NCBI GenBank assembly: GCA_017983615.1 | Contig: JAGOBB010000002.1 | Location: 124,001 to 188,000 of the forward strand | Source of the DNA: Azonexus sp. | Lineage (GTDB): Bacteria > Pseudomonadota > Gammaproteobacteria > Burkholderiales > Rhodocyclaceae | DNA length: 64,000 nt | Direction of reading: 5' to 3' | Shown here: piece after piece, positions 2,168 to 46,440 of the stretch | Layout of the letters: each line of letters opens with the position of its first letter | Position numbering within the stretch: position 1 is the first letter of the stretch | Notes under the pieces: generated by a model | The model's input: the letters and a program-made list of their open reading frames with translations, nothing else | Databases searched by the model: none | What the model was told of the DNA's origin: nothing | Position numbers and translations under genes: made by a program

Positions 2168-2925
2168 GGGCGGGCGTAGAGGGTGATCACGTCGTAGGTC
2201 AGCGGCAGCCCGGCCGGTGTGCGCAGGGCCTCGATTGCCGCCTCGGCGCGCTGGAAGCTGGCGCGGCTCATCAGGCCGGGGCGTCGGCCGGCACCGATCT
2301 GGTTGGCGCCGATGGCCTTGACGGCGCGGAGCAGGGTCCGGAGGTCGGGGTAATGGGCGGTTTTTTGGTTTTTTTCCAGGCTGACCGTAGCAAATCCGGA
2401 TTCGGCGGCCAGTTGGCCGATTTCTTCACCGCTGTGGAAGGCCAGCGTGTGCCGGTAGGCATCGACGCCGGCAAATGCGTGCCGTAGTTCCCTGAAGGTT
2501 TCCGGGCCAAGGCTGGCCAGCGCGAGGAGACCGTCGTGCCGCAAGGTGCGCCGGGCTTCGCGCAGGGCGCCGCCAAGGTCGCACCATTGCACGGCCAGGC
2601 TGGACCAGTAGAGATCGAGACTTGCATCGGCAAGGGGCAGGTGTTCCAAATCGCCGGCGATCCGGCAGCACGGGGCTTTTACCCGAAGCAGCATGGCCGA
2701 CGAAAGGTCGAGAGCCACGGCGTGGGCGGCCGGGAAGCGCGCCTGCAGCGCGGTTTGGGCGTGGCCGGTGCCGCAACCGGCGTCGAGGATGCGGGCCGGA
2801 TTGATCGCCGGCAGGCCTTCGGCCAGTTGGGCGCATATGCGGCGCTGGATTGCGGCGGCGCTGTCGTAGGTCGGCGCGGCGCGCTCGAACGACTGGCGGA
2901 TGCGGGCCTTGGACGGCTTAGTCAT
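2164..2925 (-). CDS. bioC: Malonyl-ACP O-methyltransferase
   Basis: SAM-dependent methyltransferase that methylates malonyl-ACP so that fatty acid synthase can build the pimeloyl chain. Starting at MTKPSKARIRQSFERAA gives 253 residues, and the text RQSFERAAPTYD is typical of BioC N-termini. Motif I is LDAGCGTGH near residue 50. The reading frame could be extended upstream, but that part lies inside bioH and looks non-native. The start overlaps the bioH stop by 8 bases. A copy of the dispersed GACCGTAGC element is embedded in the last third and is translated as FATVSLEKNQK. Confidence 0.93.
   Translation of the reverse strand: MTKPSKARIRQSFERAAPTYDSAAAIQRRICAQLAEGLPAINPARILDAGCGTGHAQTALQARFPAAHAVALDLSSAMLLRVKAPCCRIAGDLEHLPLADASLDLYWSSLAVQWCDLGGALREARRTLRHDGLLALASLGPETFRELRHAFAGVDAYRHTLAFHSGEEIGQLAAESGFATVSLEKNQKTAHYPDLRTLLRAVKAIGANQIGAGRRPGLMSRASFQRAEAAIEALRTPAGLPLTYDVITLYARP
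2359..2395 (+). repeat. Dispersed 35-bp element, copy 1 (inside bioC)
   Basis: The core GACCGTAGC at 2383-2391 is preceded by two T tracts (2361-2366 and 2369-2375), as in the other copies. The last three bases differ (AAA instead of ATT). On the bioC coding strand it reads in frame GCT-ACG-GTC, giving Ala-Thr-Val. Confidence 0.8.
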
Positions 2926-3631
2926 GCAGGAAGCTGTTGAGCGCAGCGCGGAAGTCGTCCGGGCGGGACAGAAAGGGGGCGTGGGCACAGCCGTCGAGCA
3001 CGGCCAGCCGGGCGCCCGGGATCAGGGCGGCCAGCGCCTCGGCGGCGGCGAGCGGCATCAGCGGGTCGGCCGCGCCGTGGATGAGCAGCGTCGGCGCCTG
3101 GACCTGCGGGGCGAGTTCGCGCAGGTCGACGTCGCGCAGCCAGGCCAGGCCGGTCGCCAGGACGTCGCCGGCCGGGCGCGGGTCGGCCAGCTTGAGCAGT
3201 TCGACGGTGACGGCCCGGGCCCGGGCATCGCCGCGATTGAAGTTGCCGACAAAGCGCGGCAGCACCGCTTCGGCGTCGGCGGCGACACTGGCGGTGAATT
3301 CGTCCAGCACGGCCGGCGGCATGGCCTGCGGCCAGCCGTCGCGCTGGATGAAGCTGGCCGTGCCGGCAACCAGGACCAGTTTGCCGACCTTGGCCGGATG
3401 ACGGGCGGCGATGGCCAGCGCCAACTGGGCCCCGAGCGACCAGCCGGCCAGCGTGCTGCCGGGTGTCAGGCGGGCGGCGATAGCGTCGGCGGCTGCGGTG
3501 AAGTCGCGGATCAGCGGCGTTTCGCCGTAACCGGGCAAATCGAGAATTTGGCCTTTTTTTGCCTCGACCGTAGCATTCAGCGGGCCGCGGCCGAGGCACC
3601 AGCCGGGCAGGAAAACCAGCGGCGCCGTCAT
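2918..3631 (-). CDS. bioH: Pimeloyl-ACP methyl ester carboxylesterase
   Basis: Alpha/beta hydrolase that removes the methyl ester from pimeloyl-ACP methyl ester, freeing pimeloyl-ACP for BioF. It has 237 residues when started at MTAPLVFLPGWCLGRG, the usual BioH opening. The nucleophile elbow is GWSLGAQ, the acid lies in HGAADPLMP and the histidine in CAHAPFLS, so the triad is complete. The start overlaps the bioF stop by 4 bases. Near the N-terminus, codons for NATVEAKKGQ coincide exactly with a copy of the dispersed element. Confidence 0.93.
   Translation of the reverse strand: MTAPLVFLPGWCLGRGPLNATVEAKKGQILDLPGYGETPLIRDFTAAADAIAARLTPGSTLAGWSLGAQLALAIAARHPAKVGKLVLVAGTASFIQRDGWPQAMPPAVLDEFTASVAADAEAVLPRFVGNFNRGDARARAVTVELLKLADPRPAGDVLATGLAWLRDVDLRELAPQVQAPTLLIHGAADPLMPLAAAEALAALIPGARLAVLDGCAHAPFLSRPDDFRAALNSFLHD
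3544..3577 (+). repeat. Dispersed 35-bp element, copy 2 (inside bioH)
   Basis: Exact 12-base core GACCGTAGCATT at 3566-3577, with a T7 tract at 3554-3560 and GAATTTGGCC further out. On the bioH strand it reads AAT-GCT-ACG-GTC in frame. Confidence 0.9.
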
Positions 3632-4794
3632 GCCAGTTCCTTCAGGGCAGCGATCAGACTTTCGATGTCGGCGGCGGTGTGCGCGGCCGAGACAGAAATG
3701 CGCAGCCGCGCCGTGCCCTTGGGCACTGTCGGCGGGCGGATTGCCGGCACCCACAGGCCGCGTTCCCACAGCGCTTTCGACAGGCCGACGGCGGCTTCGT
3801 TGTCGCCGACGATCAACGGCTGGATGGCGGTCGGCGAAGGCAGCAGCTTGAGCGGCAGCCCGGCCAGACCGTCGCGCAATTGGCCGATACGGGCCATCAG
3901 GCTGGAACGCAGGGCGTCGCCGGCGCCGATCAATTGCAGGCTCTTGCTCAGCGCACAGGCGACGGCCGGCGGGGCGGCGGTTGTGAAGATATAGCTGCGG
4001 CCCTTCTGCAGCAGGTATTCGATGGCCGTCGCCGAGCCGGCGACGAAGGCGCCGCCGACCCCGGCCGCCTTGCCCAGCGTGCCCATGAGCACGATGCGCG
4101 GCGATGCGGGCAGGTTGAAATGGCCGAGGCTGCCCTTGCCGTGCGGGCCAAGGACGCCGAAGCCGTGGGCGTCATCGATGATCAGCCAGGCGTCGTAGCG
4201 CTCGGCCAGCGCGAAGAGCAGCGGCAGCGGGGCGAGGTCGCCGTCCATGCTGAACACGGCGTCGGTGACGATCAGCTTGTTCTTTGCGCTGCTCGCTGCC
4301 AGCAAGCGTTCCAGCGCTGCGAGGTCGTTGTGCGGATAGCGCTGGACGTCGGCGCCGTTGGCCTTGGCCAGTTGCATGGCATCGATCAGCGAGGCGTGGT
4401 TCAGTTTGTCGGCAAATACTGCATCGCCGCGCCCGGCCAGGGTCGGGGTCACGGCGAGATTGGCCAGGTAGCCGGTCGAGAAAGTCAGTGCGCGGGCAAA
4501 ACCGGTGAAGGCGGCGATCTCATTTTCCAGCGCCTCGTGCGGCGCCAGATGGCCGCTGACCAGATGCGACGCCCCGCTACCGGCACCCCACTGCAACGCG
4601 CCATCGGCCAATGCCTGGGCGATCTCGGCATTGCCGGCCAGCCCGAGGTAGTCGTTGGATGCGAAATTAAGCACTTTTTTGCCATCGACCGTAGCATTCC
4701 GGCCGCAGGGCGTTTCCAGCACGCGCCGGCGACGGGTTAGGCCGGTGGCGGTGATTTCGGCGAGTTCGGCGGTTAGACGGTCTTCGAGGTTCAT
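3628..4794 (-). CDS. bioF: 8-amino-7-oxononanoate synthase
   Basis: PLP enzyme condensing pimeloyl-ACP with L-alanine, with loss of CO2, to give 8-amino-7-oxononanoate. It has 388 residues, the normal length. SNDYLGLA near residue 48, DDAHGFGVLG (cofactor-binding Asp/His) and the Schiff-base lysine in MGTLGKAAG are all present. The start codon lies 3 bases after the stop of the PIN toxin gene, and no good ribosome site is visible, so translation may depend on readthrough coupling from the toxin gene. The peptide RNATVDGKKV corresponds to a dispersed element copy. Confidence 0.95.
   Translation of the reverse strand: MNLEDRLTAELAEITATGLTRRRRVLETPCGRNATVDGKKVLNFASNDYLGLAGNAEIAQALADGALQWGAGSGASHLVSGHLAPHEALENEIAAFTGFARALTFSTGYLANLAVTPTLAGRGDAVFADKLNHASLIDAMQLAKANGADVQRYPHNDLAALERLLAASSAKNKLIVTDAVFSMDGDLAPLPLLFALAERYDAWLIIDDAHGFGVLGPHGKGSLGHFNLPASPRIVLMGTLGKAAGVGGAFVAGSATAIEYLLQKGRSYIFTTAAPPAVACALSKSLQLIGAGDALRSSLMARIGQLRDGLAGLPLKLLPSPTAIQPLIVGDNEAAVGLSKALWERGLWVPAIRPPTVPKGTARLRISVSAAHTAADIESLIAALKELA
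4663..4698 (+). repeat. Dispersed 35-bp element, copy 3 (inside bioF)
   Basis: Exact core GACCGTAGCATT at 4687-4698, T6 tract at 4675-4680 and the outer AT segment GAAATTAA. It is in the same reading frame as the bioH, bioC and psd copies (Asn-Ala-Thr-Val). Confidence 0.9.
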
Positions 4795-4797
4795 GGT

Positions 4798-5202
4798 TTA
4801 AACCAGCTTGAAATGCTTGCGGCCGGGTAGGCGGTAGGTTTCAAAATCGGCCCGGTCCAGCGTCCAGACGTCGGTGCAACCGGTCTTCAAAGCGGCGACG
4901 ACCAGCGATGCATCGGCCAGGTCCATCGGGCGGTCGGCGTAGCGGGTGATCCAGTCGATGGCGCTGACCAGTTCGTCACGGCCGAGGGGCAGAACTTCCA
5001 GCCCGCCGCGTTCGATCCACTGGTAGAGCGGCAAGGTCGCGGCGACGTTGGGGGCGAGGTGGGAAAACTCGGTGAGCACCGCCCAGGTAGTGAGCAGGCG
5101 TCCGCGATAAGCCTTCAGAAAATCCGTGCACCGCTCGTGCGCGTGATCCCGCTTGCTGGCCAGCGCGACGAGCGGGCCGGTATCGACGAGCAGCAGGTTC
5201 AT
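4798..5202 (-). CDS. PIN domain ribonuclease toxin (VapC-like)
   Basis: A 134-residue PIN domain protein, the toxin half of a type II toxin-antitoxin pair. The acidic PIN residues are visible: Asp in LLVDTGPLVAL, Glu in LTEFSHLA, Asp in MDLADASLV and Asp in TLDRADF, consistent with a Mg-dependent RNase active on RNA in the cytosol. Its ATG overlaps the antitoxin stop by 4 bases. It ends only 3 bases before bioF, which puts the biotin genes in the same transcript as the toxin. The VapBC label is by analogy, since no specific subfamily was recognised. Confidence 0.8.
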   Translation of the reverse strand: MNLLLVDTGPLVALASKRDHAHERCTDFLKAYRGRLLTTWAVLTEFSHLAPNVAATLPLYQWIERGGLEVLPLGRDELVSAIDWITRYADRPMDLADASLVVAALKTGCTDVWTLDRADFETYRLPGRKHFKLV

Positions 5203-5456
5203 GCGCGGCCGTGCTTGCGGGCGATGGCATCCTTGACCCGAGCCTTGGCGTTGCTCGCCAGGTCATCCGCGGCGCTCAGCGAGCCGATAAACCCGGTTTC
5301 GCAGGCAATCTCGTAAGCGGTCTTTTCCGGCTGGGCGGCGGCAAAGCGTTGCTCAAGCAATTCGATGATGACTTCGGACTTGCTGCGCCGCGTTTCCACG
5401 CAATAACGCGCCAGCGCCTGTTCCAGACGCAGGGGAATGCGGACGGTGGTGGTCAT
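5199..5456 (-). CDS. Ribbon-helix-helix antitoxin of the PIN toxin
   Basis: An 85-residue protein whose N-terminal 40 residues (TTTVRIPLRLEQALARYC, then RRSKSEVIIELLEQRF) form a ribbon-helix-helix fold of the CopG/Arc type. The C-terminal half is a variable toxin-binding tail. It should neutralise the PIN toxin encoded immediately downstream and repress its own promoter. A perfect inverted repeat 24 bases upstream (5480-5495) is the obvious operator. Confidence 0.78.
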   Translation of the reverse strand: MTTTVRIPLRLEQALARYCVETRRSKSEVIIELLEQRFAAAQPEKTAYEIACETGFIGSLSAADDLASNAKARVKDAIARKHGRA

Positions 5457-5479
5457 GCGGTGGCCCCGAAGTTGTTGGT

Positions 5480-5495
5480 GTATTAACGGTAATAC
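5480..5495. promoter_or_regulatory. Inverted repeat, likely operator of the RHH/PIN pair
   Basis: GTATTA-ACGG-TAATAC is a perfect 6-bp inverted repeat with a 4-base spacer. It sits just upstream of the antitoxin start in an AT-rich patch that would also hold the promoter. Size and location fit an RHH autoregulatory site. If so, it would also influence bioFHCD downstream. Confidence 0.55.
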
Positions 5496-5558
5496 AAAAT
5501 GTTGTGGGGTGCAAGGGAGGCTGGGCGATTAGGCGGGGCCGCGGGCGGCGTTGCACCC

Positions 5559-5798
5559 TCACCTCCTGGTTTGTTGAGTTACGCGCGCCCGCAATGCCGA
5601 GAAATAGGCGGTATCAGCCGGTGCCGACGGCGCCGAATCTACGCCAGCCAGCAGCAGGCCCCGCAATTGCTGGTGATCATGATCCTTGCAAATCAGTTCG
5701 CGGACATGCTCGCTGCTGGTGCCATAACCGTGTTGGCTGACTTGATGGTCGGCAAAGCTTTCCAGCGCATCGGGCAGAAAAATGTTCATCGTGTTCAT
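5559..5798 (-). CDS. Orphan ParD-like antitoxin
   Basis: A 79-residue protein matching the ParD/CC2985 antitoxin family: short N-terminal strand MNIFLPDALESF, helices DHQVSQHGYGTSSEHVREL, and a C-terminal toxin-binding region ending in the typical FSALRARV stretch. An alternative start lies 9 bases in (ATG at 5789). A parE toxin would be expected directly downstream, but only about 100 bases separate it from the next gene, so the partner is absent. It may be a remnant, or it may act on a toxin elsewhere. Confidence 0.7.
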   Translation of the reverse strand: MNTMNIFLPDALESFADHQVSQHGYGTSSEHVRELICKDHDHQQLRGLLLAGVDSAPSAPADTAYFSALRARVTQQTRR

Positions 5799-5843
5799 GG
5801 GGTTGTCGTGGAGGGCTTGGCAAAAGTTGGCAAGGCGCGGTGT

Positions 5844-6998
5844 TCAAACCTTGCTGCTCGACTGGCATTTCAATGTTTTCGTCCAGCCATAGCGGACGGG
5901 ATCAATGTTTAAAAGATGTTTACGCAAGGTGTCTTGCTTTTCCTGGTCGGCACGCCGAAAGATGCTGCGTAGCTCTTCGTCGATGGCTTCAGGGCTGGCA
6001 CCCCTTTGGGCCGCTTTTTCATACCAGGATTGCCCAAGGTCGTAGTTGCCGATTTCGATATTTACTGCACCGAGAAGCGTGCATGGGCGGAAATTCTGCG
6101 GGGTGAATCGGTGGGATTTTTCTCCCAGATAAAGTGCCTCTGAGTACTTGCCCAAATCCCGTTTTACCCCGCCATAAGTCGTGCAGAGCGCGGATTTGAT
6201 TTTGATGTCGTGCTTTCCGTCGATGTCAATCGTTCCCAGCATTGCTTCGGCAGTGGATGATTCACCGCATTTTCGGTAATGCTTGCTTGCGTTGACCGCG
6301 GCCCAGGGATCTTTGGTCTTTTGGAATTCGTTGGAATGGAATCTAGCTTCGTTTCGATGATAAGCGGCTTTCAGCTCTCGCGTAAAAAAGCTTTGTTCAT
6401 AGCCAGCTTTCGTTGTCGAGAGCCACACAACCTCTTCGTCCGACAGCCGGGTGCCAGCCTCGACTTTCTGCAAAATGGCCATCAGTTCCGAAAAATGCGC
6501 TTTCTCGATGAAATAGTCGAGACCGTATTTTTCCTTCAGAGCAGCCTGTTTGGCTCTGGCGATGTTCTTCGGGTCGCTCTCGTATGCGAGTTTTGCTGCC
6601 ATGAACTTTTGGCTGGCAATACGCATCGCCTGGTCTCTTGCTTCTTCGACTTGTTGCCGCTCCAACTCGTCTTGGTGGCGACGAATTTCCATGGCTTGTT
6701 TGCGTTCGCTTTGTTCCGCTTGTGCGGTTGCCAGATACTCGGCGAAAGAAATTTGCCCGGTCGCAAGATTGTGCAGGGTGATCAGTCCGGTTTTTTTCAG
6801 ATATTGCAGGGCAAGAGCGGAGACGGAAGTTTCCGAGTCAAGGCACTCGAGAATATTCGCCAGACGACTGCCAACTTGGGATGCTGACGGTTGGTCGTCA
6901 AGCGCATATTTTATTGCCAGCGCTGTCTGAGTTTTGTTCGGAACAGTGACGCCGCCCTGGAATGGACTATTGCGGAAAGTTCGAGTCATTCTTCTCAT
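5844..6998 (-). CDS. Unknown protein, coiled coil plus TPR-like C-terminus
   Basis: A 384-residue protein I do not recognise. Residues about 95-165 are rich in Glu, Gln, Arg and Lys with a long coiled-coil look (AEQSERKQAMEIRRHQDELE and following). The C-terminal third contains repeated helical units (for example around DLGKYSEALYLGEKSHRF and IEIGNYDLGQSWYEKAAQRG) typical of tetratricopeptide-like arrays. There is no signal peptide or membrane span. The DNA is visibly richer in A/T than the flanking bio genes and, with the adjacent toxin-antitoxin genes, suggests an acquired islet. The ATGs at 6998 and 6989 are both possible starts. Confidence 0.65.
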   Translation of the reverse strand: MRRMTRTFRNSPFQGGVTVPNKTQTALAIKYALDDQPSASQVGSRLANILECLDSETSVSALALQYLKKTGLITLHNLATGQISFAEYLATAQAEQSERKQAMEIRRHQDELERQQVEEARDQAMRIASQKFMAAKLAYESDPKNIARAKQAALKEKYGLDYFIEKAHFSELMAILQKVEAGTRLSDEEVVWLSTTKAGYEQSFFTRELKAAYHRNEARFHSNEFQKTKDPWAAVNASKHYRKCGESSTAEAMLGTIDIDGKHDIKIKSALCTTYGGVKRDLGKYSEALYLGEKSHRFTPQNFRPCTLLGAVNIEIGNYDLGQSWYEKAAQRGASPEAIDEELRSIFRRADQEKQDTLRKHLLNIDPVRYGWTKTLKCQSSSKV

Positions 6999-7032
6999 GG
7001 CTGAACATTCTATGCCAAAAGAGTTTTATGGG

Positions 7033-8382
7033 CTAAATGGGAAGGGACTCGTGTAGCGCTTCGCTGATGGTTTTTCCTAGATACTCGATTTCCTCATCGC
7101 TGACGATGTAGGGCGGCATCACGTAAACCGTGTTGCCGATTGGCCTGATCAGTGCTTCGCCTTCCAGCGCGGCGCGGTAGAACTTGCGGGAGAAGTGCGG
7201 GTCGGCAGTTTCGACGTCGAAGGCGGCGATCATGCCGCGTTGGCGGAGGTGGCGGACATTCGGGTGGTTGGCCAGCGGGGCTAGGGTGGCGCCGATTTTT
7301 GCCGCTTTCTGGCGGTTGACCGCAAGGATGTCGTCGGACTCGAAGATGTCGAGCGTCGCCAGCGCGGCGCGGCAGGCCAGCGGGTTGCCGGTGTAGCTGT
7401 GCGAGTGCAGGAAGGCGCGGGCGACCGAGTCGTCTAGGAAAGTGTTGTAGATGGCGTCGGTGCAGAGGACAACGGACAGCGGCAGGTAGCCGCCGGAGAT
7501 GCCTTTCGACAGGCACATCAGGTCGGGGCGGATACCGGCCTGCTCATGGGCGAAGAAGGTGCCGGTGCGGCCGCAGCCGACGGCGATTTCGTCGCAGATC
7601 AGGTGTACTTCGTGGCGGTCGCACAGCGCGCGGGCGAGGCGCAAGTATTCCGGGTCGTACATCGCCATGCCGGCGGCGCCCTGGACCAGCGGTTCGACGA
7701 TCAGCGCGGCGATCCGCTCGCCATGGGCTTCGAGATGGGCTGCCAGCGCCGCGGCGGCGCGGCGGGCGACATCGGCCGGGGATTCCCCGGCTTCGGCCAG
7801 CCGGAAATCGGGCGAGGGGACGACGGTCGCGGTGCGAACGAGCGGCGCGTAGACGTCCTTGAAAATGGCGACGTCGGTGACGGCCAGCGCGCCCACCGTT
7901 TCGCCGTGGTAGCTGCCGGCCAGGCAGAGGAATTCTGCCTTCTCAGGTCGGCCGACATTGCGCCAGTAGTGGAAGCTCATCTTCAGGGCAATCTCGGTGG
8001 CCGAGGCGCCGTCCGAGGCGTAGAAGGCGTGGCCGAGGGCGCCGCCGGTCAGCGCCGACAGCCGCTCGGACAGTTCGACTACCGGCTGGTGCGTGAAGCC
8101 GGCCAGCATGACGTGTTCGAGCGTTTCAAGTTGGTCGCGCAAAGCCGCGTTGATGCGCGGGTTGGCGTGGCCGAACAGGTTGGTCCACCACGAGCTGATG
8201 CCGTCGAGGTAGCGCTTGCCGTCAAAGTCGTAGAGCCAGGCGCCACTGCCGCGGGCGATGGGGACCAGCGGCAGGTGGGCGGGGGAGCCCGCCTGCGCGT
8301 GGTGCTGCATCTGTGTGCACGGGTGCCAGACGGCCGCCTGGCTGCGCGCCAGCCAGTCCGCGTTCGACGGCTTGTTCTTCAA
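7033..8382 (-). CDS. bioA: Adenosylmethionine-8-amino-7-oxononanoate aminotransferase
   Basis: PLP-dependent class III aminotransferase that converts 8-amino-7-oxononanoate to 7,8-diaminononanoate using SAM as amino donor. It has 449 residues. VWHPCTQMQ near the N-terminus and RYLDGISSWW are BioA hallmarks. LICDEIAVGCGRTGTFFA holds the PLP-ring Asp, and the Schiff-base lysine is in LMCLSKGISGGYLP. The start overlaps the end of the DUF2863 gene by 4 bases, so the two are co-transcribed. About 2.2 kb of islet DNA separates it from the other bio genes. Confidence 0.95.
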   Translation of the reverse strand: MKNKPSNADWLARSQAAVWHPCTQMQHHAQAGSPAHLPLVPIARGSGAWLYDFDGKRYLDGISSWWTNLFGHANPRINAALRDQLETLEHVMLAGFTHQPVVELSERLSALTGGALGHAFYASDGASATEIALKMSFHYWRNVGRPEKAEFLCLAGSYHGETVGALAVTDVAIFKDVYAPLVRTATVVPSPDFRLAEAGESPADVARRAAAALAAHLEAHGERIAALIVEPLVQGAAGMAMYDPEYLRLARALCDRHEVHLICDEIAVGCGRTGTFFAHEQAGIRPDLMCLSKGISGGYLPLSVVLCTDAIYNTFLDDSVARAFLHSHSYTGNPLACRAALATLDIFESDDILAVNRQKAAKIGATLAPLANHPNVRHLRQRGMIAAFDVETADPHFSRKFYRAALEGEALIRPIGNTVYVMPPYIVSDEEIEYLGKTISEALHESLPI

Positions 8383-9551: not shown

Positions 9552-9578
9552 CGGTGTTCCAGAAAATTCAAAGAGCTA

Positions 9579-9598: not shown

Positions 9599-9627
9599 GG
9601 GCACAGCACAAACCTTCGAGTCAGACC

Positions 9628-10398: not shown

Positions 10399-10399
10399 G

Positions 10400-12674: not shown

Positions 12675-12714
12675 ATTTTGATTTTTGCCCTTTTTTCGGG
12701 CCGACCGTAGCATT
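12675..12714 (+). repeat. Dispersed 35-bp element, copy 4 (eutC/PIN gap)
   Basis: Exact core GACCGTAGCATT at 12703-12714, T6 tract at 12691-12696 and outer tract ATTTTT at 12681-12686. GGGCC abuts the core and GCCC lies on the far side of the T tract. It occupies most of the gap between the convergent eutC and PIN genes. Confidence 0.92.
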
Positions 12715-12716
12715 TG

Positions 12717-22633: not shown

Positions 22634-22667
22634 TTTGCTACGGTCAGTGGGAAATTTAGGCAGAATT
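22634..22667 (-). repeat. Dispersed element, degenerate copy in opposite orientation
   Basis: TGCTACGGTC at 22636-22645 is the reverse complement of the core, followed by AAATTT and AATTC segments at roughly the spacing seen in other copies. The GGCC arms are missing. It lies in the 166-base gap upstream of the TonB receptor and after the citrate-synthase-like cluster. Confidence 0.55.
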
Positions 22668-23470
22668 CACCATGTTCTTCGCGGGGGGCCTTGGTAGACT
22701 ATGGCGGCGCAGCGAAGTGGCATGGTGGCCTGCTCTGGGCGCTGGACGGATTCAATGTAGCAAGGTGTCATGCCGGCCAGGAAGGCGGGGAGTGAATACA
22801 GGTAGTATTCACGTGGCGATAGACCGAGATCCAAAGCCAGCGAAGCAGCGATTACCGCGTAGTTCATGCGCAACCGCCAGCGACCGGACAGCAGGATGTC
22901 CTCGATGGCGAACGCTAGCTTGACGAAGGGGCCGTCCGCCAAATTTTCGCGTTTGGCGATCGACAACACAATCGCGTTTCGCTCATCGGCGGCGGAGCGG
23001 TTGATCGGCCGGCCAAAGCCGCCGATACCGCGGTTGATGCGCAGTTCCTCGAGGACAACTTCTTTGAGGTCTTGCCCGGCGTCAACGGCTGACTTGGCTC
23101 GGACAAGGAAATCAGCGATCGCGATGTCTATCTGTCGGCCGTAGATGGCAGATTCAGATGTGGCCAGCGCAGCACTTATGCCGAGCACGCCAGTGCTGCG
23201 GGCGCTGCCAGCGAGTGCGGCAACACGGTTGTTCCACAGTCGGGGGTCCGGATAGCTGGTATTGACCCATAGCGCATGTAGTATGCGGAGCTGAGCCGGG
23301 GTATGGCGGCGGCCGGTAATTCCGTAGACGTAGAGGTCTATCCAGTCTGCGTCGCGTAATTCTGAATGGAGGTCTTGGCCTCGGAATACAGCTCGTTCGC
23401 CGGGAAAGCAGCCGCCCATCTCGGTGCGCAGGGGGCCTTCGTAGGATTCGAGAATCGAGGTCTGGGTCAT
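22667..23470 (-). CDS. Citrate-synthase-like protein B, catalytic residues altered
   Basis: A 267-residue protein with the fold pattern of short citrate synthase/citryl-CoA lyase homologues. Where active enzymes read GFGHP.HK.xDPR it reads GFGRPINRSAADER: the catalytic histidine is Arg, while Asp and Arg are roughly kept with one extra residue. The HGGA histidine region reads ESAIYG, and the later catalytic Asp position reads RMNY. It may bind acyl-CoA or form a heteromer with the upstream paralogue rather than act as a normal synthase. It is the last gene of a four-gene operon. Confidence 0.65.
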   Translation of the reverse strand: MTQTSILESYEGPLRTEMGGCFPGERAVFRGQDLHSELRDADWIDLYVYGITGRRHTPAQLRILHALWVNTSYPDPRLWNNRVAALAGSARSTGVLGISAALATSESAIYGRQIDIAIADFLVRAKSAVDAGQDLKEVVLEELRINRGIGGFGRPINRSAADERNAIVLSIAKRENLADGPFVKLAFAIEDILLSGRWRLRMNYAVIAASLALDLGLSPREYYLYSLPAFLAGMTPCYIESVQRPEQATMPLRCAAIVYQGPPRRTW

Positions 23471-29955: not shown

Positions 29956-29960
29956 TTCGC

Positions 29961-29995
29961 GAAAATCGGCCTTTTTGGAGGCCGACCGTAGCATT
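29961..29995 (+). repeat. Dispersed 35-bp element, copy 5 (after acnB)
   Basis: Exact core GACCGTAGCATT at 29984-29995, T5 tract 29972-29976, GAAAAT outer tract and GGCC arms on both sides of the T tract (GGCC-TTTTTGGA-GGCC). It begins 6 bases after the acnB stop and ends 4 bases before the terminator stem. Confidence 0.92.
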
Positions 29996-32493: not shown

Positions 32494-32511
32494 GGCAAGG
32501 CGGGCATTTTT

Positions 32512-32546
32512 GAAAATGAGTGTTTTTTTGCGCCGACCGTAGCATT
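32512..32546 (+). repeat. Dispersed 35-bp element, copy 6 (GGDEF/hydrolase gap)
   Basis: Exact core GACCGTAGCATT at 32535-32546, T7 tract 32523-32529 and outer GAAAAT tract. It lies between the converging ends of the GGDEF and cysteine hydrolase genes. Confidence 0.92.
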
Positions 32547-34622: not shown

Positions 34623-34640
34623 GTGCCCCGGCAGGGTTTC

Positions 34641-34675
34641 GATTTTGGCCGAAATTTCCGGCCGACCGTAGCATT
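34641..34675 (+). repeat. Dispersed 35-bp element, copy 7 (MEKHLA/phnA-like gap)
   Basis: Exact core GACCGTAGCATT at 34664-34675, with GATTTT as the outer tract and AAATTT between GGCC arms. It is one of the two best-formed copies. Confidence 0.93.
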
Positions 34676-40553: not shown

Positions 40554-40555
40554 AG

Positions 40556-41407
40556 TCAGGCCGGCTGGCTGCCCATTGCCTCGCCCATTCGGATGGCGCC
40601 AGTCGGCGCCCAGTCCGGGTTGAAGGCGAGGGTGTCTTTCGGGAAGAGCATGACGACCGTCGAGCCGAGCAGGAAGCGGCCCATTTCCTGCCCTTTTTCA
40701 AGGGCGACCGTAGCATTCTCGTCGTAGCGCCATTCGCGCAGCACGCCGGAGCGTAGCGGATTGACAATGCCGTGCCAGACGGTGGCCATGCTGCCGACTA
40801 TGGTGGCGCCGACCAGGGTAAGCACGAAGGGGCCGAAGGCCGATTCGAAGACGCATACGACGCGCTCGTTGCGGGCAAAGAGGCCGGGTACGCCGCGCGC
40901 CGTGGTCGGGTTGACCGAGAACAGCGCACCGGGCACATAGATCATCCGCGTCAGTTTGCCGGCGCAGGGCATGTGGATGCGATGGTAGTCGCGCGGGCTG
41001 AGGTAGAGCGTGGCGAAGCTGCCGTTTTCGAAGCGGGCGGCCAGTTCGCGGTCGCCGCCGACCAGCGCGGTGGTCGAATAGCTGTGACCCTTGGCCTGGA
41101 AAATCTGGTCGCGGTCTATGGCGCCGAACTGACTGATCGCACCGTCAACGGGGCTGATGAAATCGGCCTCGGCGAGCGGCCTGGCGCCTTCCTGCAGCGG
41201 CCGGGTGAAGAATTCGTTGAAGCTCTTGTAGCTGGCGATGTCCGGATTGGCCGCCTCGGCCATGTTTACGTTGTAGCGGCCGACGAACCAGCGGATGACC
41301 GAGGTGGTCAGCGACCCGGCTTCCTTGGAGGCCAGTTTGCCGGCGAGGGCGGTCAGCGCCTGTTTCGGGATCAGGTATTGGGGCAGGACGGCGAGGCGGT
41401 CGGACAC
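40556..41407 (-). CDS. psd: Phosphatidylserine decarboxylase proenzyme
   Basis: Inner-membrane-associated enzyme that makes phosphatidylethanolamine. The proenzyme cleaves itself in LLGSTVVML (Gly-Ser), giving an alpha chain with a pyruvoyl group. FTRPLQEGARP, SPVDGAI and YHRIHMPCAG are conserved. A GTG start at 41407 (SDRLAVLPQYLIPKQ) has GGAAA upstream and matches family length (283 residues). A TTG at 41434 directly after the rlmF stop is an alternative. Codons for ENATVALEKGQ, just before the cleavage site, are a copy of the dispersed element. Confidence 0.93.
   Translation of the reverse strand: MSDRLAVLPQYLIPKQALTALAGKLASKEAGSLTTSVIRWFVGRYNVNMAEAANPDIASYKSFNEFFTRPLQEGARPLAEADFISPVDGAISQFGAIDRDQIFQAKGHSYSTTALVGGDRELAARFENGSFATLYLSPRDYHRIHMPCAGKLTRMIYVPGALFSVNPTTARGVPGLFARNERVVCVFESAFGPFVLTLVGATIVGSMATVWHGIVNPLRSGVLREWRYDENATVALEKGQEMGRFLLGSTVVMLFPKDTLAFNPDWAPTGAIRMGEAMGSQPA
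40683..40717 (+). repeat. Dispersed 35-bp element, copy 8 (inside psd)
   Basis: Exact core GACCGTAGCATT at 40706-40717 and T5 tract 40694-40698. On the psd strand it reads AAT-GCT-ACG-GTC, the same frame as in bioF and bioH. Confidence 0.9.
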
Positions 41408-41434
41408 AGGTGTTTCCAGGCTGAAAAATGACAA

Positions 41435-42457
41435 TTATACGGGGTCGGCTGCTGGCGGCACGGCCGCGGCGGGCGTAAAGGCGGGTTGCGCGTCGGGCGT
41501 CGTCGTGCCAAAAGCCGGGGCCGACGACCAGTGTTCCTTGCGCCATTTCTCGCGTTCACCGTTGCCGAAGAAAGTCCAGGCGATCAGCCGGCTCTGCTTC
41601 TGGCCCTGGGCCATCGGGATGATGCGTGACTCGACGACCTTGGCCTTCTTCAGCGCCGCCTCGATATGAGGCAGGTTGTCGCCTTGCGACAGCAGGCTGG
41701 TGAACCACATGACCCGCTTCGGGATGCTTACGCTCTGCTCGATCATCCGCTTGACGAAGGCGCGCTCGCCGCCGTTGCACCAGAGTTCGCTACCGCCGCC
41801 GCCGAAATTGAGGCGCGGCTCGGCGGCGCCGCGTTTGGCGCCCGGCTTGTTGAGGTTGTTCCACTTGCGCTGGCTGACGGCATGAACGTCATCCGGCGAG
41901 TTGTGGAAGGGCGGGTTGCAGATTGACAGGTCGAAACTTTCGCCGGAACGCAGCAGGCCGGTAAACACGTTGTCCCAGACCGGCTGGTGGCGCAGTTCGA
42001 CGATGCCGGCCAGCTCGGGATTCTTGCCGATGATGGCCTGGGCGTTGGCCAGCGCCGCCTCATCGATATCGACGCCGAGGAAGGACCAGCCGTATTCGGC
42101 ATGGCCGATCAGCGGATAGACCAGATTGGCGCCGGTGCCGACGTCGAGCACGCGCACGCCGGAGCCGCTCGGGATGTTCTTCTTGTTGCAGGTCGCCAGC
42201 AGGTCCGCAACGCTGTGGATGTAGTCGGCACGGCCGGGAATCGGCGGGCACAGGTAGCCGGCCGGGATGTCCCAGCCCTTGACGCCGTAGTGATGCATCA
42301 GGATCGCCCGGTTCAGCATCTTGACCGCCGCCGGGTTGGCAAAGTCGATGCTGGCTGTGCCGGCCGGCGTCGTCTTGAGGTGCTTGGCCAGCGCCGCCGA
42401 GGTGGCGGTCAGCGCGGCAAAGTCGTAGCCGGCGGCGTTCTTGTTGCGGGGATGCAT
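41435..42457 (-). CDS. rlmF: 23S rRNA (adenine(1618)-N6)-methyltransferase
   Basis: SAM-dependent methylation of A1618 of 23S rRNA. It has 340 residues. It opens with MHPRNKNAAGYDF, has motif I LDVGTGANLVYP and the N6-adenine motif ICNPPFHNS, all typical of RlmF. A Pro/Ala-rich C-terminal tail of about 35 residues (TPDAQPAFTPAAAVPPAAD) is extra. psd follows at once, so the two are probably co-transcribed. Confidence 0.93.
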   Translation of the reverse strand: MHPRNKNAAGYDFAALTATSAALAKHLKTTPAGTASIDFANPAAVKMLNRAILMHHYGVKGWDIPAGYLCPPIPGRADYIHSVADLLATCNKKNIPSGSGVRVLDVGTGANLVYPLIGHAEYGWSFLGVDIDEAALANAQAIIGKNPELAGIVELRHQPVWDNVFTGLLRSGESFDLSICNPPFHNSPDDVHAVSQRKWNNLNKPGAKRGAAEPRLNFGGGGSELWCNGGERAFVKRMIEQSVSIPKRVMWFTSLLSQGDNLPHIEAALKKAKVVESRIIPMAQGQKQSRLIAWTFFGNGEREKWRKEHWSSAPAFGTTTPDAQPAFTPAAAVPPAADPV

Positions 42458-42537
42458 GGCGGTCTTTCTTTCAGCGGGGTGCGGATTGTCTCACGACCTG
42501 TCGTGAATGAGACATTGGCGGCCGCGGGCAAGATGAT

Positions 42538-42572
42538 GATTTTTGGCGTTTTTTCGGGCCGACCGTAGCATT
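42538..42572 (+). repeat. Dispersed 35-bp element, copy 9 (upstream of rlmF)
   Basis: Exact core GACCGTAGCATT at 42561-42572, T6 tract 42549-42554 and outer GATTTTT tract. It lies between the end of the GlxA-type regulator gene and the start of rlmF. Confidence 0.92.
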
Positions 42573-42631
42573 TGGAAAGTCGGTTGCCAATGAGGCTGCG
42601 GATCGACTGTCGGGTCGTTCGTTCGAAGCGC

Positions 42632-43582
42632 CTATCCCCGTAGCCGGGCCTGTCGCCGCAGCTCCTGCGGTGACAGGCCGAAGATCGCCAGGCAACTGCG
42701 CCGCATCCGTTCCACGCTGCCGAAGCCGACGCTTCTGGCGATTTGCTCGAAAGACTCCGCTCCGACCTCGATTCGTGCACGGGCGCCATCCAGCCGCAGG
42801 CGCTCGATGGCTTTGGCGGGCGTTGTGCCGGTGGCGTTGAAAAACACCCGGTTGAATTGCCGCACACTGAGGCAGGCGACATCGGCGAGTTGCTCGACGG
42901 TCAATGCCTCGGCGAGGTGCTCCGTGGCGTAATGCAATGCATCCCGGACGCGACCGGCCGGCGGCGCCATGTCGAGCAGGGTGGAGAACTGGGACTGGCC
43001 GCCGAGGCGGCGCTGATGGACCACCATGTCCCGCGCGACGCCCTTGGCGACCTCTGGCCCCAAGTCGTCCTCGATCATGGCCAGTGCCATATCCATGCCG
43101 GCGGTCATGCCGGCGGAAGTCCAGACCTTGCCCGCCTTGATGAATATGCGGTCGATATCGACCTCGACGGCGGGATATTGGGTTTGCAGCAGGCCGCCGT
43201 AGCGCCAGTGGGTGGTCGCCCGCTGGCCGTCGAGAATGCCCGCCGCCGCGAGGAGGAAGGCGCCGGTGCAGACGCTGCCGACGCGCGCGGCCGTCTGGCT
43301 GCTTTCGCGGATCAGGGTCCGGGCGGCTTCGTTCAGGGCGTATTGATGGGCAATGGGACCGCCCGCCGCGAGCAGGGTGTGGCTTGGCCCAACCTGGCCG
43401 AAGGCTTCGCTCGCGATGCTGACGCCGGCGCGATCCACCACCGGACCGCCGCTTACCGAGACAATCCTGATCGGGTACTGGGCGCCGTACAGCTCGCTGG
43501 CCAGGTTGAAGGCGCTGCAGGGACCGCTCAGATCGAGCAGTTCGAACCCCGGATGCACGATGAAGGTGATGCTGCGCTGCAT
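42632..43582 (-). CDS. GlxA family AraC-type transcriptional regulator
   Basis: A 316-residue regulator. Residues 1 to about 180 form a DJ-1/PfpI-like domain with the nucleophile-elbow region VCTGAFLLAAAGIL. Residues about 215-316 hold two AraC helix-turn-helix motifs (LADVACLSVRQFNRVFFNAT, FEQIARSVGFGSVERMRRS). Such proteins often regulate amine, arginine or carnitine catabolism, but no obvious target operon adjoins it. Monocistronic. Confidence 0.9.
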   Translation of the reverse strand: MQRSITFIVHPGFELLDLSGPCSAFNLASELYGAQYPIRIVSVSGGPVVDRAGVSIASEAFGQVGPSHTLLAAGGPIAHQYALNEAARTLIRESSQTAARVGSVCTGAFLLAAAGILDGQRATTHWRYGGLLQTQYPAVEVDIDRIFIKAGKVWTSAGMTAGMDMALAMIEDDLGPEVAKGVARDMVVHQRRLGGQSQFSTLLDMAPPAGRVRDALHYATEHLAEALTVEQLADVACLSVRQFNRVFFNATGTTPAKAIERLRLDGARARIEVGAESFEQIARSVGFGSVERMRRSCLAIFGLSPQELRRQARLRG

Positions 43583-43608
43583 GGCTGTTTTGCGGGAGAG
43601 TCGGAAAC

Positions 43609-43631
43609 GGGCCGACTATACGCGTAGCATT
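43609..43631 (+). repeat. Dispersed element variant with a 6-base insertion
   Basis: GGGCCGAC (43609-43616), then TATACG, then CGTAGCATT (43623-43631). The two halves match the element core on each side of the insertion. The T tract is missing. CGGGAGA (43593-43599) and TCTCCCG (43631-43637) flank it as an inverted repeat. It lies just upstream of the GlxA-type regulator. Confidence 0.4.
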
Positions 43632-43660
43632 CTCCCGGCCCAAGCCGTTGGGGCGAAGCG

Positions 43661-43960
43661 CTACAGGGTGTGATAGTGCAGCGGGTTGGCGATGCCGAGA
43701 AATTCGAGGTCGACCTCGAAGGCCATCAGATCGGCTGCGCCGCGGCGCGGGTCATCGGCCAGTTGCGCTTCGCTTGAGGGTGACGGGGCGGGGTAGCCGA
43801 AATTCATCAAGGTGGTGAGATGCCGCGCCAGATCTTCCCCGGCCAGGGCGCTGACCAGGGCCAGGTTCGCGCCGACGGTGACGCAGCCGGGCAGATCCGG
43901 AAATTCGACGGTGTAGCTGCCAGCCTCGTTCTGGCGCAGGAAGGCGATGAAGCACGCCAC
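43661..43960 (-). CDS. HicB-like protein without HicA
   Basis: A 99-residue protein resembling the HicB antitoxin N-terminal fold: CFIAFLRQNEAGSYTVEFPDLPGCVTVG, then a helix (LALVSALAGEDLARHLTTLMNFG) and PAPSPSSEAQLADDP. The C-terminal DNA-binding domain of larger HicB proteins is absent, and no hicA lies next to it. The GTG start follows the DUF779 stop by one base, so it appears translationally linked to that gene rather than to a toxin. Confidence 0.7.
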   Translation of the reverse strand: MACFIAFLRQNEAGSYTVEFPDLPGCVTVGANLALVSALAGEDLARHLTTLMNFGYPAPSPSSEAQLADDPRRGAADLMAFEVDLEFLGIANPLHYHTL

Positions 43961-43961
43961 G

Positions 43962-44336
43962 TCAAACCACGCCCGCTTCTTCCAGTTCGGCGCATTCCGC
44001 GTCGGTGAACAGGCGGGACTCCATGCGGAAGATGACGCCTTCCGTCCCTTCGAGCGACATATCGCCGCTGCGATCCCCGGGGACGACCCGGATCAGGATC
44101 TGGGTGCGCCTGAACAGTTCGTGCTGCGAAGCATCGAGGTAATAGGGCACGCCGCCGACTTCGCCGACGAGCTGGTCATGCGGTCCGACGTGGTATTCGC
44201 TCGCCTTGTAGCAGTAGGCTGAACTATGGTCGCAGCCGCCGCAGGATTGCACGAATAGCAGTGGCGAGCCATGTTTCGTCTTGAGCCTTTCGAGGAGACC
44301 AAGAGCCTCCGGCGTGGCCACGATGCGATCGACCAT
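43962..44336 (-). CDS. DUF779 family protein
   Basis: A 124-residue protein matching DUF779 (VDRIVATPEALGLLERL, QSCGGCDHSSAYCYKASEYHVG), often found beside aldehyde dehydrogenase genes, though none is here. CGGCDH and the second cysteine may bind metal. GGAGGA lies 7 bases before the ATG at 44336, so the longer upstream frame is rejected. Confidence 0.85.
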   Translation of the reverse strand: MVDRIVATPEALGLLERLKTKHGSPLLFVQSCGGCDHSSAYCYKASEYHVGPHDQLVGEVGGVPYYLDASQHELFRRTQILIRVVPGDRSGDMSLEGTEGVIFRMESRLFTDAECAELEEAGVV

Positions 44337-44671
44337 GGGTTCATCCTCCAGATGTGAGTTGAGTGCGACGCCGCGACAGGAGATCGCGAGCAGGGCAATC
44401 ATCGCCTGAAGGTTTTTGCGAGACAGGACAAAAATCCCGCGATTCTGGTCATTTTGAGTGGTGGGATGACTGCCACCCTGTTTCCGGACAGCCCCGCGTT
44501 TGTCGGCTTCGCGACACCGCGCTCCGGAATTGGCGGGTCTGGCACGCCGGAGCGTGAGAAATGCTCGGCGCGATGCCAGCAACTTATTGATTTTTGGCCA
44601 TTTTTCCGGCCGACCGTAGCGGCATGATTCTGGCTAGTCGACTGTCATTGCAATCGACAGGGAGGCAGCCC
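44337..44671. other. Intergenic region upstream of the AAA+ gene
   Basis: A 335-base gap between the divergent DUF779 and AAA+ ATPase genes. It contains one dispersed element (44589-44620) and must hold promoters for both genes. No small gene, RNA or terminator was recognised in it. Confidence 0.6.
44589..44620 (+). repeat. Dispersed 35-bp element, copy 10 (upstream of AAA+ gene)
   Basis: GATTTTT, GGCC, ATTTTT, CCGGCC and the core GACCGTAGC at 44612-44620. The final ATT is replaced by GGC. It lies about 50 bases before the ribosome site of the AAA+ gene. Confidence 0.85.
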
Positions 44672-46378
44672 ATGAAGCTGCAGATCGACCGGCCGCACAT
44701 CGAGGCGATGTTGCAGGCTTTTCCGCGACTGGAATTCGTCCGTGAGCAACTGCGCTTCGGCAACCGGGTCGAGGTCTCGTTCAACCAGCTGGAGGACGGC
44801 GAGCTCGATCTGCTGCAAAGCTTGTACGCGGCAGGCGACAGCGAATTGCGGGCGCGGGCGGCGCAGATCGCTACCTTGCGTCAGGCGCTGAAGGAGGGCG
44901 GCAAGCGCTTCGAGCCGGAAGAGCTGGAAATGGCCGTGCCCGCCATCGCCCGCTACCTGTCCGAAGGCTCGTCCCGCGGCTGGATGTTTTCGGCCAGCAT
45001 CACCGGCAAGCCGCTGGCCTACGTGGTGACGCGACTCGATTTCACGCCGCCGTCGGAAGAGGAAACCGGCAAGATCTTCGTCGAGCTGAAAGCCAACGCC
45101 AAGGCGCGCCTGGCGACGGCGACGCTACGCATCTCCGGCCCCGACATCGCCGGCCGGACGATCCCGGAAGTGCTTGCGACCAAGGGCTTCGTCAAGGAAA
45201 CGCCGGCCCTGCTGGCCAGCTACGATGAAGGAGCCGAGCGTTATTTCGACTGGCGGGCGCAGTACGGCGCCCAGTTCTCTGGCACCGGCACCGGCTACTT
45301 CGCCGAAAATCCGACGGCGACGCACCGCGATACGGATTACTCGCGCAAGGATCAGATCATCCTGTCGTCGACCGGCAGCCCGGCGCGGCTGGTCAACGAC
45401 GAGAGCATCCTCGGCGAACGAGTGCTGGCGCTCGATGCGACCGGCGACATCATGGCCAAGTTCGTGCGCCGCGTCGCCCGCAATTCGCGGCTGTCCGGCA
45501 AGGAGGAAGCCGAGGTCGAGGAAACCCAGGCCGGCATCGCCAAGGGCCTGTTTACCGAATTGCCGGTGCATTTCTACCTGCTGATGTTCCACCTCGACCT
45601 TCACCATTATGTCTGGGTGCACGTCGACGACATGCAGGCCTACGCCTACCAGCCGGAACTGAAGACCAAGCTGGTCCTGCCGCCCGAGCAGACCGACCTG
45701 ATCGACATCCTGACCGCCGAGATGGACGTGCTGATGGACGATATCGTGTCCGGCAAGTCGGGCGGCACGACAGTGCTGTGCGCCGGGCCACCGGGCGTTG
45801 GCAAGACGCTGACCGCCGAGGTGTACTCGGAAATCATCCGCCGGCCGCTGTATCGTGTGCATTCCGGGCAGCTTGGCCTGAACGTCGCGGCGATGGAAAC
45901 GGCGCTCAAGGAAGTGCTGACCCGTGCCCAGCGCTGGGGGGCGGTCATGCTGATCGACGAGGCCGACGTGTACATCAAGAAGCGCGACGACAACATAACA
46001 ATGAACGCCGTGGTCGGGGTCTTCCTGCGCGTGCTGGAGTATTTCAACGGCCTGCTGTTCCTGACCACCAACCGCGTCGACGACATCGACGAAGCCATCG
46101 TCTCGCGCTGCATCGCGTTGATCCGCTTCTACCCGCCGGATCGTGTGGATCGCAAGAAGATCTGGGGCGTCATGGCCGCGCAATTCGGGCTGGAACTGGC
46201 ACCGGAACTGCACGACCGCCTGCCCTACATCTTCCCGAATGCATCAGGCCGCGACATCAAGGGGCTGGCCAAGCTGGTCGCCAAATACTGCAGCCAGAAA
46301 GCCGTGCCGCCGAGCGAGGAGGTCTTCCGTCGCTGCTCGATGTTCCGGGCCATGGATCAGGCCGAGGTGCCGGCCTGA
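44672..46378 (+). CDS. AAA+ ATPase with unfamiliar N-terminal half
   Basis: A 568-residue cytosolic protein. Residues about 345-550 form an AAA+ module: Walker A GPPGVGKT (372-379), Walker B VMLIDEAD (425-432), sensor region LLFLTTNRVDD and a likely arginine finger in IDEAIVSRC. The first 340 residues do not resemble FtsH, ClpX or other known partner domains that I recognise. They include an acidic helical start and a mid-region YFAENPTATHRDTDYSRKDQ. GGGAGG lies 6 bases before the ATG. It is monocistronic and framed by dispersed elements on both sides. A remodelling or chaperone role is likely from the fold; the substrate is unknown. Confidence 0.8.
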   Translation: MKLQIDRPHIEAMLQAFPRLEFVREQLRFGNRVEVSFNQLEDGELDLLQSLYAAGDSELRARAAQIATLRQALKEGGKRFEPEELEMAVPAIARYLSEGSSRGWMFSASITGKPLAYVVTRLDFTPPSEEETGKIFVELKANAKARLATATLRISGPDIAGRTIPEVLATKGFVKETPALLASYDEGAERYFDWRAQYGAQFSGTGTGYFAENPTATHRDTDYSRKDQIILSSTGSPARLVNDESILGERVLALDATGDIMAKFVRRVARNSRLSGKEEAEVEETQAGIAKGLFTELPVHFYLLMFHLDLHHYVWVHVDDMQAYAYQPELKTKLVLPPEQTDLIDILTAEMDVLMDDIVSGKSGGTTVLCAGPPGVGKTLTAEVYSEIIRRPLYRVHSGQLGLNVAAMETALKEVLTRAQRWGAVMLIDEADVYIKKRDDNITMNAVVGVFLRVLEYFNGLLFLTTNRVDDIDEAIVSRCIALIRFYPPDRVDRKKIWGVMAAQFGLELAPELHDRLPYIFPNASGRDIKGLAKLVAKYCSQKAVPPSEEVFRRCSMFRAMDQAEVPA

Positions 46379-46383
46379 ATTTC

Positions 46384-46440
46384 GATTTTGGCCAAAATTT
46401 CGGGCCGACCGTAGCATTCCGGCGGTCGGCCCGAAAAAGG
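46384..46440. repeat. Dispersed 35-bp element, copy 11, with partial inverted copy forming a hairpin
   Basis: Full element 46384-46418 (core GACCGTAGCATT at 46407-46418) followed by a partial reverse copy. TTTCGGGCCGACC (46398-46410) pairs perfectly with GGTCGGCCCGAAA (46424-46436), a 13-bp stem around a 13-base loop. It sits between converging genes and could act as a two-way terminator, although no long T run follows. Confidence 0.9.

Follow-up and report, generated by a model that had tools for sequence, protein, structure and literature searches.

What is a short element doing at a dozen or so places in a single 64-kb stretch of an Azonexus sp. genome (64,000 nucleotides, hereafter the window)? 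Azonexus and Dechloromonas are perchlorate and aromatic degraders. An earlier note on the window had read the element as a DNA uptake or other genome-signature sequence, a reading that the present analysis supports. Counted exactly across the whole host genome (2.92 Mb; assembly G000, completeness 86%), the core GACCGTAGCATT occurred 451 times, 223 and 228 times on the two strands, and its reversed control 0 times. In an unprompted search of a 461-kb host sample it was the top enriched 12-mer, with 79 copies found versus 0.05 expected, in keeping with the earlier estimate that chance would supply far fewer than one. Hundreds of copies far above expectation are a feature of uptake signals. The consensus around GACCGTAGCATT is a motif of about 40 bp, AATGCTACGGTCGGCCnnAAAAAAnGGCCAAAATCAAAAT, rather than the 35 bp first proposed, with A/T tracts roughly 11 bp apart at +11..16 and +22..27 counted from the C of CGGTC. 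Both tracts described previously after the core were found; a third, weaker one had been left out. GGCC arms had also been described and are present, with GGCC beside the core belonging to this dialect only. As a highly iterated genome-wide motif the element resembles HIP1 of cyanobacteria, which, unlike it, is a short palindrome without flanking tracts. Among the publications listed for the bare 10- and 12-mers in a literature search, titles suggest primer matches.

To locate copies in the window we used a weight matrix trained on 79 core sites outside the window. It found 13 copies scoring 26.7-58.5; in five Markov-3 randomizations of the same stretch the highest score was 12.6:

2355..2394, minus strand: core variant TTTGCTACGGTC, in a predicted gene; score 26.7
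3538..3577, minus strand: exact core, in a predicted gene; score 40.5; ACGGTCAACCGG at the orthologous place in G069 and G122
4659..4698, minus strand: exact core, in a predicted gene; score 44.1; exact core also in G029
12675..12714, minus strand: exact core, between convergent predicted genes; score 58.5
22634..22673, plus strand: core variant TTTGCTACGGTC, overlapping a predicted gene end; score 32.2; new
29956..29995, minus strand: exact core, between predicted genes; score 40.0
32507..32546, minus strand: exact core, between convergent predicted genes; score 47.1
34636..34675, minus strand: exact core, between convergent predicted genes; score 53.9
40678..40717, minus strand: exact core, in a predicted gene; score 30.8
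42533..42572, minus strand: exact core, intergenic; score 49.3
44584..44623, minus strand: variant core end GCCGCTACGGTC, intergenic; score 35.7
46379..46418, minus strand: exact core, between convergent predicted genes; score 57.7
53537..53576, plus strand: one core mismatch, in a predicted gene; score 33.0; new

All eleven cores listed in the earlier note were present, nine as exact 12-mers (3566, 4687, 12703, 29984, 32535, 34664, 40706, 42561 and 46407) and two, at 2383 and 44612, as variants. That list lacked the two copies marked new; as both lie on the opposite strand, the window stands at 11:2 by strand, versus 223:228 for the genome.

Same-genus relatives carry dialects of the motif, with equal tract spacing and other letters, often at the same orthologous place (for example window positions 46406, 40705 and 3565). 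At the orthologous place of 40678..40717, G029 shares the core, G043 and G014 have GCGGTCAACC and L166 has GCGGTCGACC, the core being absent in most other aligned species; at that of 46379..46418, six relatives have the ACGGTCAACCGG form. Dialect cores include AATGCTACGGTC, YACGGTCAACCGG and GCGGTCRAC, and at least five core forms occur within the genus, those of G043 and G034 being GCGGTC forms and the others ACGGTC. The version of the motif in use thus appears to vary from species to species. Sampled DNA gave one site each in G003, G014 and G120 and none in G066, and these genomes were left out of the consensus. Among 76 same-genus Azonexus/Dechloromonas genomes, 16 have at least 190 copies of the architecture and 47 have fewer than 50; outside the genus, none of the genomes searched showed enrichment. 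The earlier note had named a genome-wide count near expectation, or sister loci without the motif, as grounds for abandoning its reading. The count was instead 451 versus 0 for the control, and copies or dialects stood at homologous loci in several same-genus genomes. Carriage by relatives, which it had proposed to examine, holds for several of them, although 47 have few copies.

We consider the element, with a probability of roughly 0.84, to be an uptake signal sequence that serves natural transformation. The hallmarks of such signals, as set out in the consulted parts of PMC1626085, match those seen here. Perfect copies outnumber singly mismatched ones in the host genome (451 and 99 of the 550 copies with at most one mismatch), even though one-mismatch forms number 36, and five relatives showed the same excess in the DNA sampled from them (30/8, 31/10, 13/10, 15/11 and 10/4). 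Genome-wide there is no orientation bias, other motif-rich genomes being likewise strand-balanced by the architecture pattern. None of the 74 gaps between copies in G000 was shorter than 1 kb, versus 15.2 in simulation, and 0 of 1000 simulations went that low. Short gaps were also few in G029, G122 and G069 (7, 6 and 16 of 1000 simulations as low), so that four of the five genomes sampled are evenly spaced; evenness in G052 did not exceed the random level (517 of 1000 simulations). Intergenic sites made up 44 of 79 in a host sample that is 88% coding, and 33 lay within coding sequence, in both orientations, with 18 of 21 same-strand in-gene sites sharing one reading frame. Many sites fall within about 60 nt of the 3' end of a gene, and in G000 convergent gaps held 17 sites in 5.5 kb and tandem gaps 21 in 35 kb. 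We made 44 in-gene orthologue comparisons, of which 13 lacked the site: nine were gapless with scattered substitutions, one had a short gap and three lacked 18-19 nt. Those three are all at one locus. The alignments show that in-gene copies mostly arose by substitution, not insertion. Site-less intergenic comparisons were gapless in 0 of 6, and three had gaps of at least 10 nt.

These intergenic gaps, found in six of six orthologues, would suit a small mobile or copied element that inserts, such as a MITE- or REP-like palindrome (the earlier note had raised a small mobile palindrome as an alternative), as would the 18-19-nt gap at one in-gene locus and the combination of high copy number with strong consensus seen in young transposed elements. 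Because site-less alignments within genes are mostly gapless, however, a mobile palindrome is unlikely for the in-gene copies; with copies evenly spaced and GGCC arms not retained beside the core in other dialects, insertion is a very improbable origin for the element. Enrichment in convergent gaps would fit a gene-end function, either as a transcription terminator or as an RNA element, yet the 33 copies within genes lie in both orientations, close pairs under 150 bp number 0 in G000 (G069 and G052 each have a single inverted pair), and other dialects have not retained the GGCC...GGCC hairpin that this one could form, all of which leaves a terminator with hardly any likelihood. Unlikely, though less remote, is a binding site for a cellular protein, be it nucleoid-associated, chromosome-organising or a global regulator, with hundreds of sites and no relation to uptake. 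Such a protein would account for a long, strong consensus with phased A/T tracts, for the intergenic preference and the many sites near gene 3' ends, and even spacing would fit a role in structuring the chromosome. It would not readily account for a set of sites whose letters shift together between related species, for copies that are few or absent in many same-genus genomes, for the presence of 33 of the 79 sites in coding DNA, or for the excess of perfect over one-mismatch copies, which is unlike regulatory sites as described in the consulted parts of PMC1626085.

Strand polarity requires separate treatment. Since two replichores cancel, genome-wide balance alone cannot exclude a replication-polar motif, also raised previously and here taken as Chi- or KOPS-like, and 11 of the 13 window copies point the same way. 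In several species the syntenic region favours one strand (0:9 for exact cores in the window, 7:23 in G029, 3:14 in G002), and G069 has 29:17 with opposite skew. Set against GC skew, the lean is the same in the syntenic pieces of G029, G002, G069 and G122. Of 201 sites in five sampled genomes, 121 run counter to the sign of the local skew, but the pieces concerned are orthologous and not independent. Against polarity, the pieces of G000 outside the window gave 14:14, 17:13, 7:2 (contrary to the trend) and 0:3, and neighbours in G000 lay on the same strand in 42 of 74 cases, a value reached by 262 of 2000 shuffles. Polarity is not seen across the host genome, though this chromosomal region is strand-biased, and we give a replication-polar motif very little credence.

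Our best reading remains a candidate signal for taking up self-DNA, in what would be a third lineage with such signals, which are described as known only from Pasteurellaceae and Neisseriaceae (PMC12616744). The earlier comparison with the Pasteurellaceae layout was correct in that A/T tracts spaced by one helical turn follow a core, but here they lie about half a turn farther from it. According to the consulted parts of PMC1626085, the Pasteurellaceae uptake signals (AAGTGCGGT and ACAAGCGGT types) share with the Azonexus motif a strong core followed by same-side A/T segments about one helical turn apart, an excess of perfect over one-mismatch copies, genome-wide strand balance, spacing more even than random, origin by substitution, an intergenic preference yet many coding copies, and subclade dialects; their inner GCGG recurs in the GCGGTC forms seen in G043 and G034. 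The host lineage differs, being Rhodocyclales, and although CGGT(C) is common to both, the Azonexus motif lacks a GCGGT-ending core with an A/T segment almost adjoining. In Azonexus the first tract begins 11 bp beyond the C of CGGTC, and seven bases separate CGGT from it; the Pasteurellaceae values, computed from positions in the same parts of PMC1626085, are about 5 bp and one base. A third tract, at least five core forms in one genus and a lower density are further differences on the Azonexus side. Host density is one motif per 6.5 kb; classical signals occur roughly once per kb (PMC1626085, consulted parts). Neisseriaceae signals also have dialects (PMC3630211, consulted parts) and a betaproteobacterial host, and a pilin of the Pfam ComP_DUS family is present in Azonexus. 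They are, in the consulted parts of PMC1626085 and PMC12616744, short, continuous and without A/T tracts; the Azonexus motif has such tracts, and is unrelated in sequence to their continuous, CTG-core signal.

Genes for a type IV pilus and for transformation are present in the host (ComEC, DprA, PilQ and pilins). A comEC match was found in 71 of 76 same-genus genomes, including all 51 good ones, DprA and PilQ scored above cut-off in 12 of 12 genomes, and pilins were detected in 8 of 8. Presence of comEC was rejected as an explanation for which species bear the motif, the match occurring in 71 of 76 anyway. A ComP_DUS-family pilin (PF16732) occurred in 7 of 7 genomes examined, that of G000 scoring 37.1 bits versus a curated score of 27.3. 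Because matches occur also in the motif-less G066 and G047, the Pfam match does not identify the receptor and was dropped as a receptor test. Dechloromonas agitata (G066) has ComEC, DprA, PilQ and the ComP_DUS pilin and lacks the motif; uptake genes do not discriminate motif-bearing from motif-less species. A pattern-based extraction of pilins from seven genomes, an incomplete set that missed some detected pilins and left out G028, gave no orthogroup present in all five motif-rich genomes (G000, G069, G122, G043 and G034) and in neither motif-poor one (G066 and G047).

We infer that the motif is read during uptake. The core around CGGTC would be recognized by a type IV pilus protein exposed at the surface, most probably a minor pilin, and the A/T tracts, with their phasing of one helical turn, may help the DNA to bend or open. 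The retracting pilus would then pull DNA through the PilQ pore, ComEC would move one strand to the cytoplasm, and DprA/RecA would recombine it into the chromosome. Fragments bearing the signal by chance mutation would be preferentially taken up and recombined, so copies would accumulate by point substitution, a molecular drive that is probably still continuing. Drift of receptor specificity in a lineage would carry the entire site set with it and so yield dialects. If the uptake reading is true, natural transformation is implied in Azonexus/Dechloromonas; a narrow literature search found no report of it in Dechloromonas. Uptake signals would then extend to a third lineage, an environmental one, in which a single genus has several dialects and sister species differ in whether they carry the motif. 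Such a genus would offer many natural replicates for identifying the pilin that reads the signal and for asking if dialects keep species apart, why A/T tracts keep recurring and how a signal is gained or lost. More speculatively, and doubtfully, the CGGT core with phased A/T tracts in Azonexus and Pasteurellaceae may not be pure convergence and may reflect a DNA-reading pilin of common ancestry, possibly spread by horizontal transfer, or an entry mechanism based on DNA bending that both lineages share, with the dialects, at least five in Azonexus, acting as gene-exchange barriers between sister species. Also in favour of the uptake reading, a foreign 34-kb insert within comEC of G002 has 0 cores of the form [CT]ACGGTCAAC; the surrounding 66 kb has 17.

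Judged from sequence, the motif is a strong candidate for a DNA uptake signal sequence (probability roughly 0.84), and it behaves like one on the computational hallmarks tested. The eleven copies claimed in the earlier note are all present in the window, nine with the exact 12-mer. Scanning the window with a weight matrix of 40 positions, built from 79 core sites that lie outside it, gave 13 copies, including two on the opposite strand that had been missed. The genome-wide excess for which the note had proposed a check is borne out: the host genome (G000; 2.92 Mb in 34 contigs, 85.7% complete) carries 451 exact 12-mers, divided 223/228 between strands, against 0 for the reversed control, and 550 copies at ≤1 mismatch. 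A motif-blind enrichment scan of 461 kb (16% of G000, window included) ranked the 12-mer top, with 79 copies where an order-3 Markov model predicts 0.05. Another 12-mer, CAAAAGAAAGTA, occurred six times in this sample versus 0.01 expected.

The consensus, built from 78 exact sites with sufficient flank and 91 sites with a 9-mer core, reads AATGCTACGGTC GGCC nn AAAAAA n GGCC AAAATC AAAAT. A/T tracts start 11 and 22 bp past the C of CGGTC, a third tract is weaker, and the opposite flank has almost no conservation except one further A/G. With conservation nearly all on one side of the core, the motif is thus polar. By sequence or layout it belongs neither to the Pasteurellaceae USS nor to the Neisseriaceae DUS, and PMC12616744 states that such motifs are known only from these two families. 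A search of open-licence papers yielded no report of an uptake sequence in Rhodocyclales, Rhodocyclaceae, Dechloromonas or Azonexus; the sole match for Azonexus plus uptake sequence concerns a gonococcal pilus factor. Within the papers searched, the motif is new as an uptake signal.

A protein encoded in the window matches named Azonexus and Dechloromonas genomes. Among 71 same-genus relatives, Betaproteobacteria bacterium AG28 (G029) has 310 exact 12-mers, six genomes have 12–53 and the remaining 64 have 0–6; 48 genomes from other families have 0–1 each. In a wider same-genus set, G123 has 483 copies at ≤1 mismatch. Blind k-mer scans of genome pieces revealed other cores at the same tract spacing: YACGGTCAACCGGAAAAAA in G069, G122, G052, G002 and G012, CTRCGGTCAACCGG in G043 and CTGCGGTCGAC in G034; TTCACGGTCRACC in G065 has weaker tracts. 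An architecture pattern that left the flanks of the core free, and whose reversed control gave ≤19 per genome, occurred 192–575 times in 16 of 76 same-genus genomes, 50–134 times in 13 and <50 times in 47. A stricter pattern gave 161 copies in G000, 156 in G043, 147 in G034 and 0–9 in nine further same-genus genomes; it was found 0–1 times each in 285 genomes of 67 other genera in the family and ≤3 times each in 297 genomes across the order outside the genus. No motif was found in 80 kb sampled from Dechloromonas agitata is5 (G066). Most dialect-B genomes cluster in a one-gene tree, where G000 groups with G123; two genomes, G029 of dialect A and G055 of dialect B, are placed away from their dialect fellows; whether dialects follow phylogeny is beyond what this tree decides.

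The scans yielded several side observations. Some TTTTCACGGTCGACCGTGAAAA copies in G065:C1:1-140000 (L284-L288, L292-L293) are palindromic, with two cores overlapping in opposite directions, and the ACGGTC[AG]AC density there, ~46 per 100 kb, is the highest among samples ≥80 kb. G012 and G069 also have an unrelated GAGAAG repeat among their highest-ranking words, and dense AGAAGGCCGAGA / AGAAGTCCGAGA repeats in G012:C83 (L289-L290), partly in G069 too, are likely a repetitive coding region. GAGCAGG/CCTGCTC-like 9-mers, perhaps codon usage or a Chi-like motif, are enriched in several of the sampled G000, G029, G043, G034 and G066, motif-less D. agitata included.

Individual sites differ between species in the core. 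At window position 46406, G000 has ACGGTCGGCC and six relatives have the ACGGTCAACCGG form. At position 40705, within a gene, the core is common to G000 and G029, reads GCGGTCAACC in G043 and G014 and GCGGTCGACC in L166, and is absent from most other aligned species. In-gene sites of G069 were searched in ten relatives, nine of which gave alignments. The site was present in 31 of 44 alignments and absent from 13, of which nine were gapless, one had a short gap and three, at a single locus, had an 18–19-nt gap. Such gapless alignments have already been used to argue that USS are not insertions (PMC1626085). Intergenic alignments contained the site in 22 of 28 cases; the six site-less ones were all gapped, three by ≥10 nt, so substitution and insertion are not separable there.

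The 79 G000 sites comprise 44 intergenic, 33 in genes and two at gene edges (coding fraction of the sample 87.7% by a simple purpose-made gene caller), and gaps between convergent genes are enriched in sites. Same-strand in-gene sites encode Asn-Ala-Thr-Val in 18 of 21 cases. None of 74 inter-site gaps in G000 is <1 kb (simulation mean 15.2; 0/1000 simulations as low), and the first 100 of the genome matches listed, which overlap the 461-kb sample, gave 2 of 91 such gaps versus ~14 expected. Short gaps are also few in G029 (7/1000 simulations as low), G122 (6/1000) and G069 (16/1000); spacing in G052 is not more even than random (517/1000). Pairs <150 bp apart occur twice in G069, once in G052 and never in G000. 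Although the motif is balanced between strands genome-wide, it is one-sided in this region in several species: exact cores in the window divide 0:9 by strand, syntenic pieces give 7:23 (G029), 3:14 (G002), 29:17 (G069) and 16:8 (G122), and relative to GC skew the lean has one direction in all of them. Other G000 pieces are without that lean (14:14, 17:13, 7:2 and 0:3). Strand balance does not by itself exclude replication polarity; regional strand bias, low density and G052 spacing are the weak points of the uptake-signal reading.

Uptake machinery is widespread. ComEC matches, some broken or partial, occur in 71 of 76 same-genus genomes and in 51/51 of good quality; DprA and PilQ exceeded cut-off in 12/12 genomes tested, and pilins were present in 8/8. 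Against Pfam ComP_DUS (cut-off 27.3), one G000 pilin scores 37.1 bits. Because such matches occur in six more genomes, two of them from motif-less species, and the G000 pilin resembles general type IV pilins by PDB sequence likeness, a receptor is not singled out.

G002 and G044 each carry one of two related elements that encode a large serine recombinase and have a comEC match on either side:

G002:C33:109609-143310 (L281-L283), element 1, about 33–34 kb, low-GC, between two comEC matches
G044:C1:2218694-2251156 (L294-L295), element 2, ~33 kb, between two comEC matches

In the G002 element the serine recombinase shows Resolvase/Recombinase domains; the element also has a DUF4917/SIR2-like protein and, judged by eye, large helicase-like and tyrosine recombinase-like proteins. 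Both insertions would inactivate DNA uptake; nonetheless, G002 has 497 motif matches. G044 has eight. At the G002 locus, [CT]ACGGTCAAC cores number 17 in the surrounding 66 kb and 0 in the foreign insert, where flank density predicts about 7–9 by simple arithmetic on this one locus; the tract pattern occurs 14 times outside and once inside, there without the ACGGTCAAC core. Elsewhere, the comEC match at G035:C1:1959178-1959913 is split over two frames in a motif-poor genome (8 matches), and that at G008:C10:856383-856889 has an internal TAG, also in a motif-poor genome (53 matches), which suggests broken competence genes.
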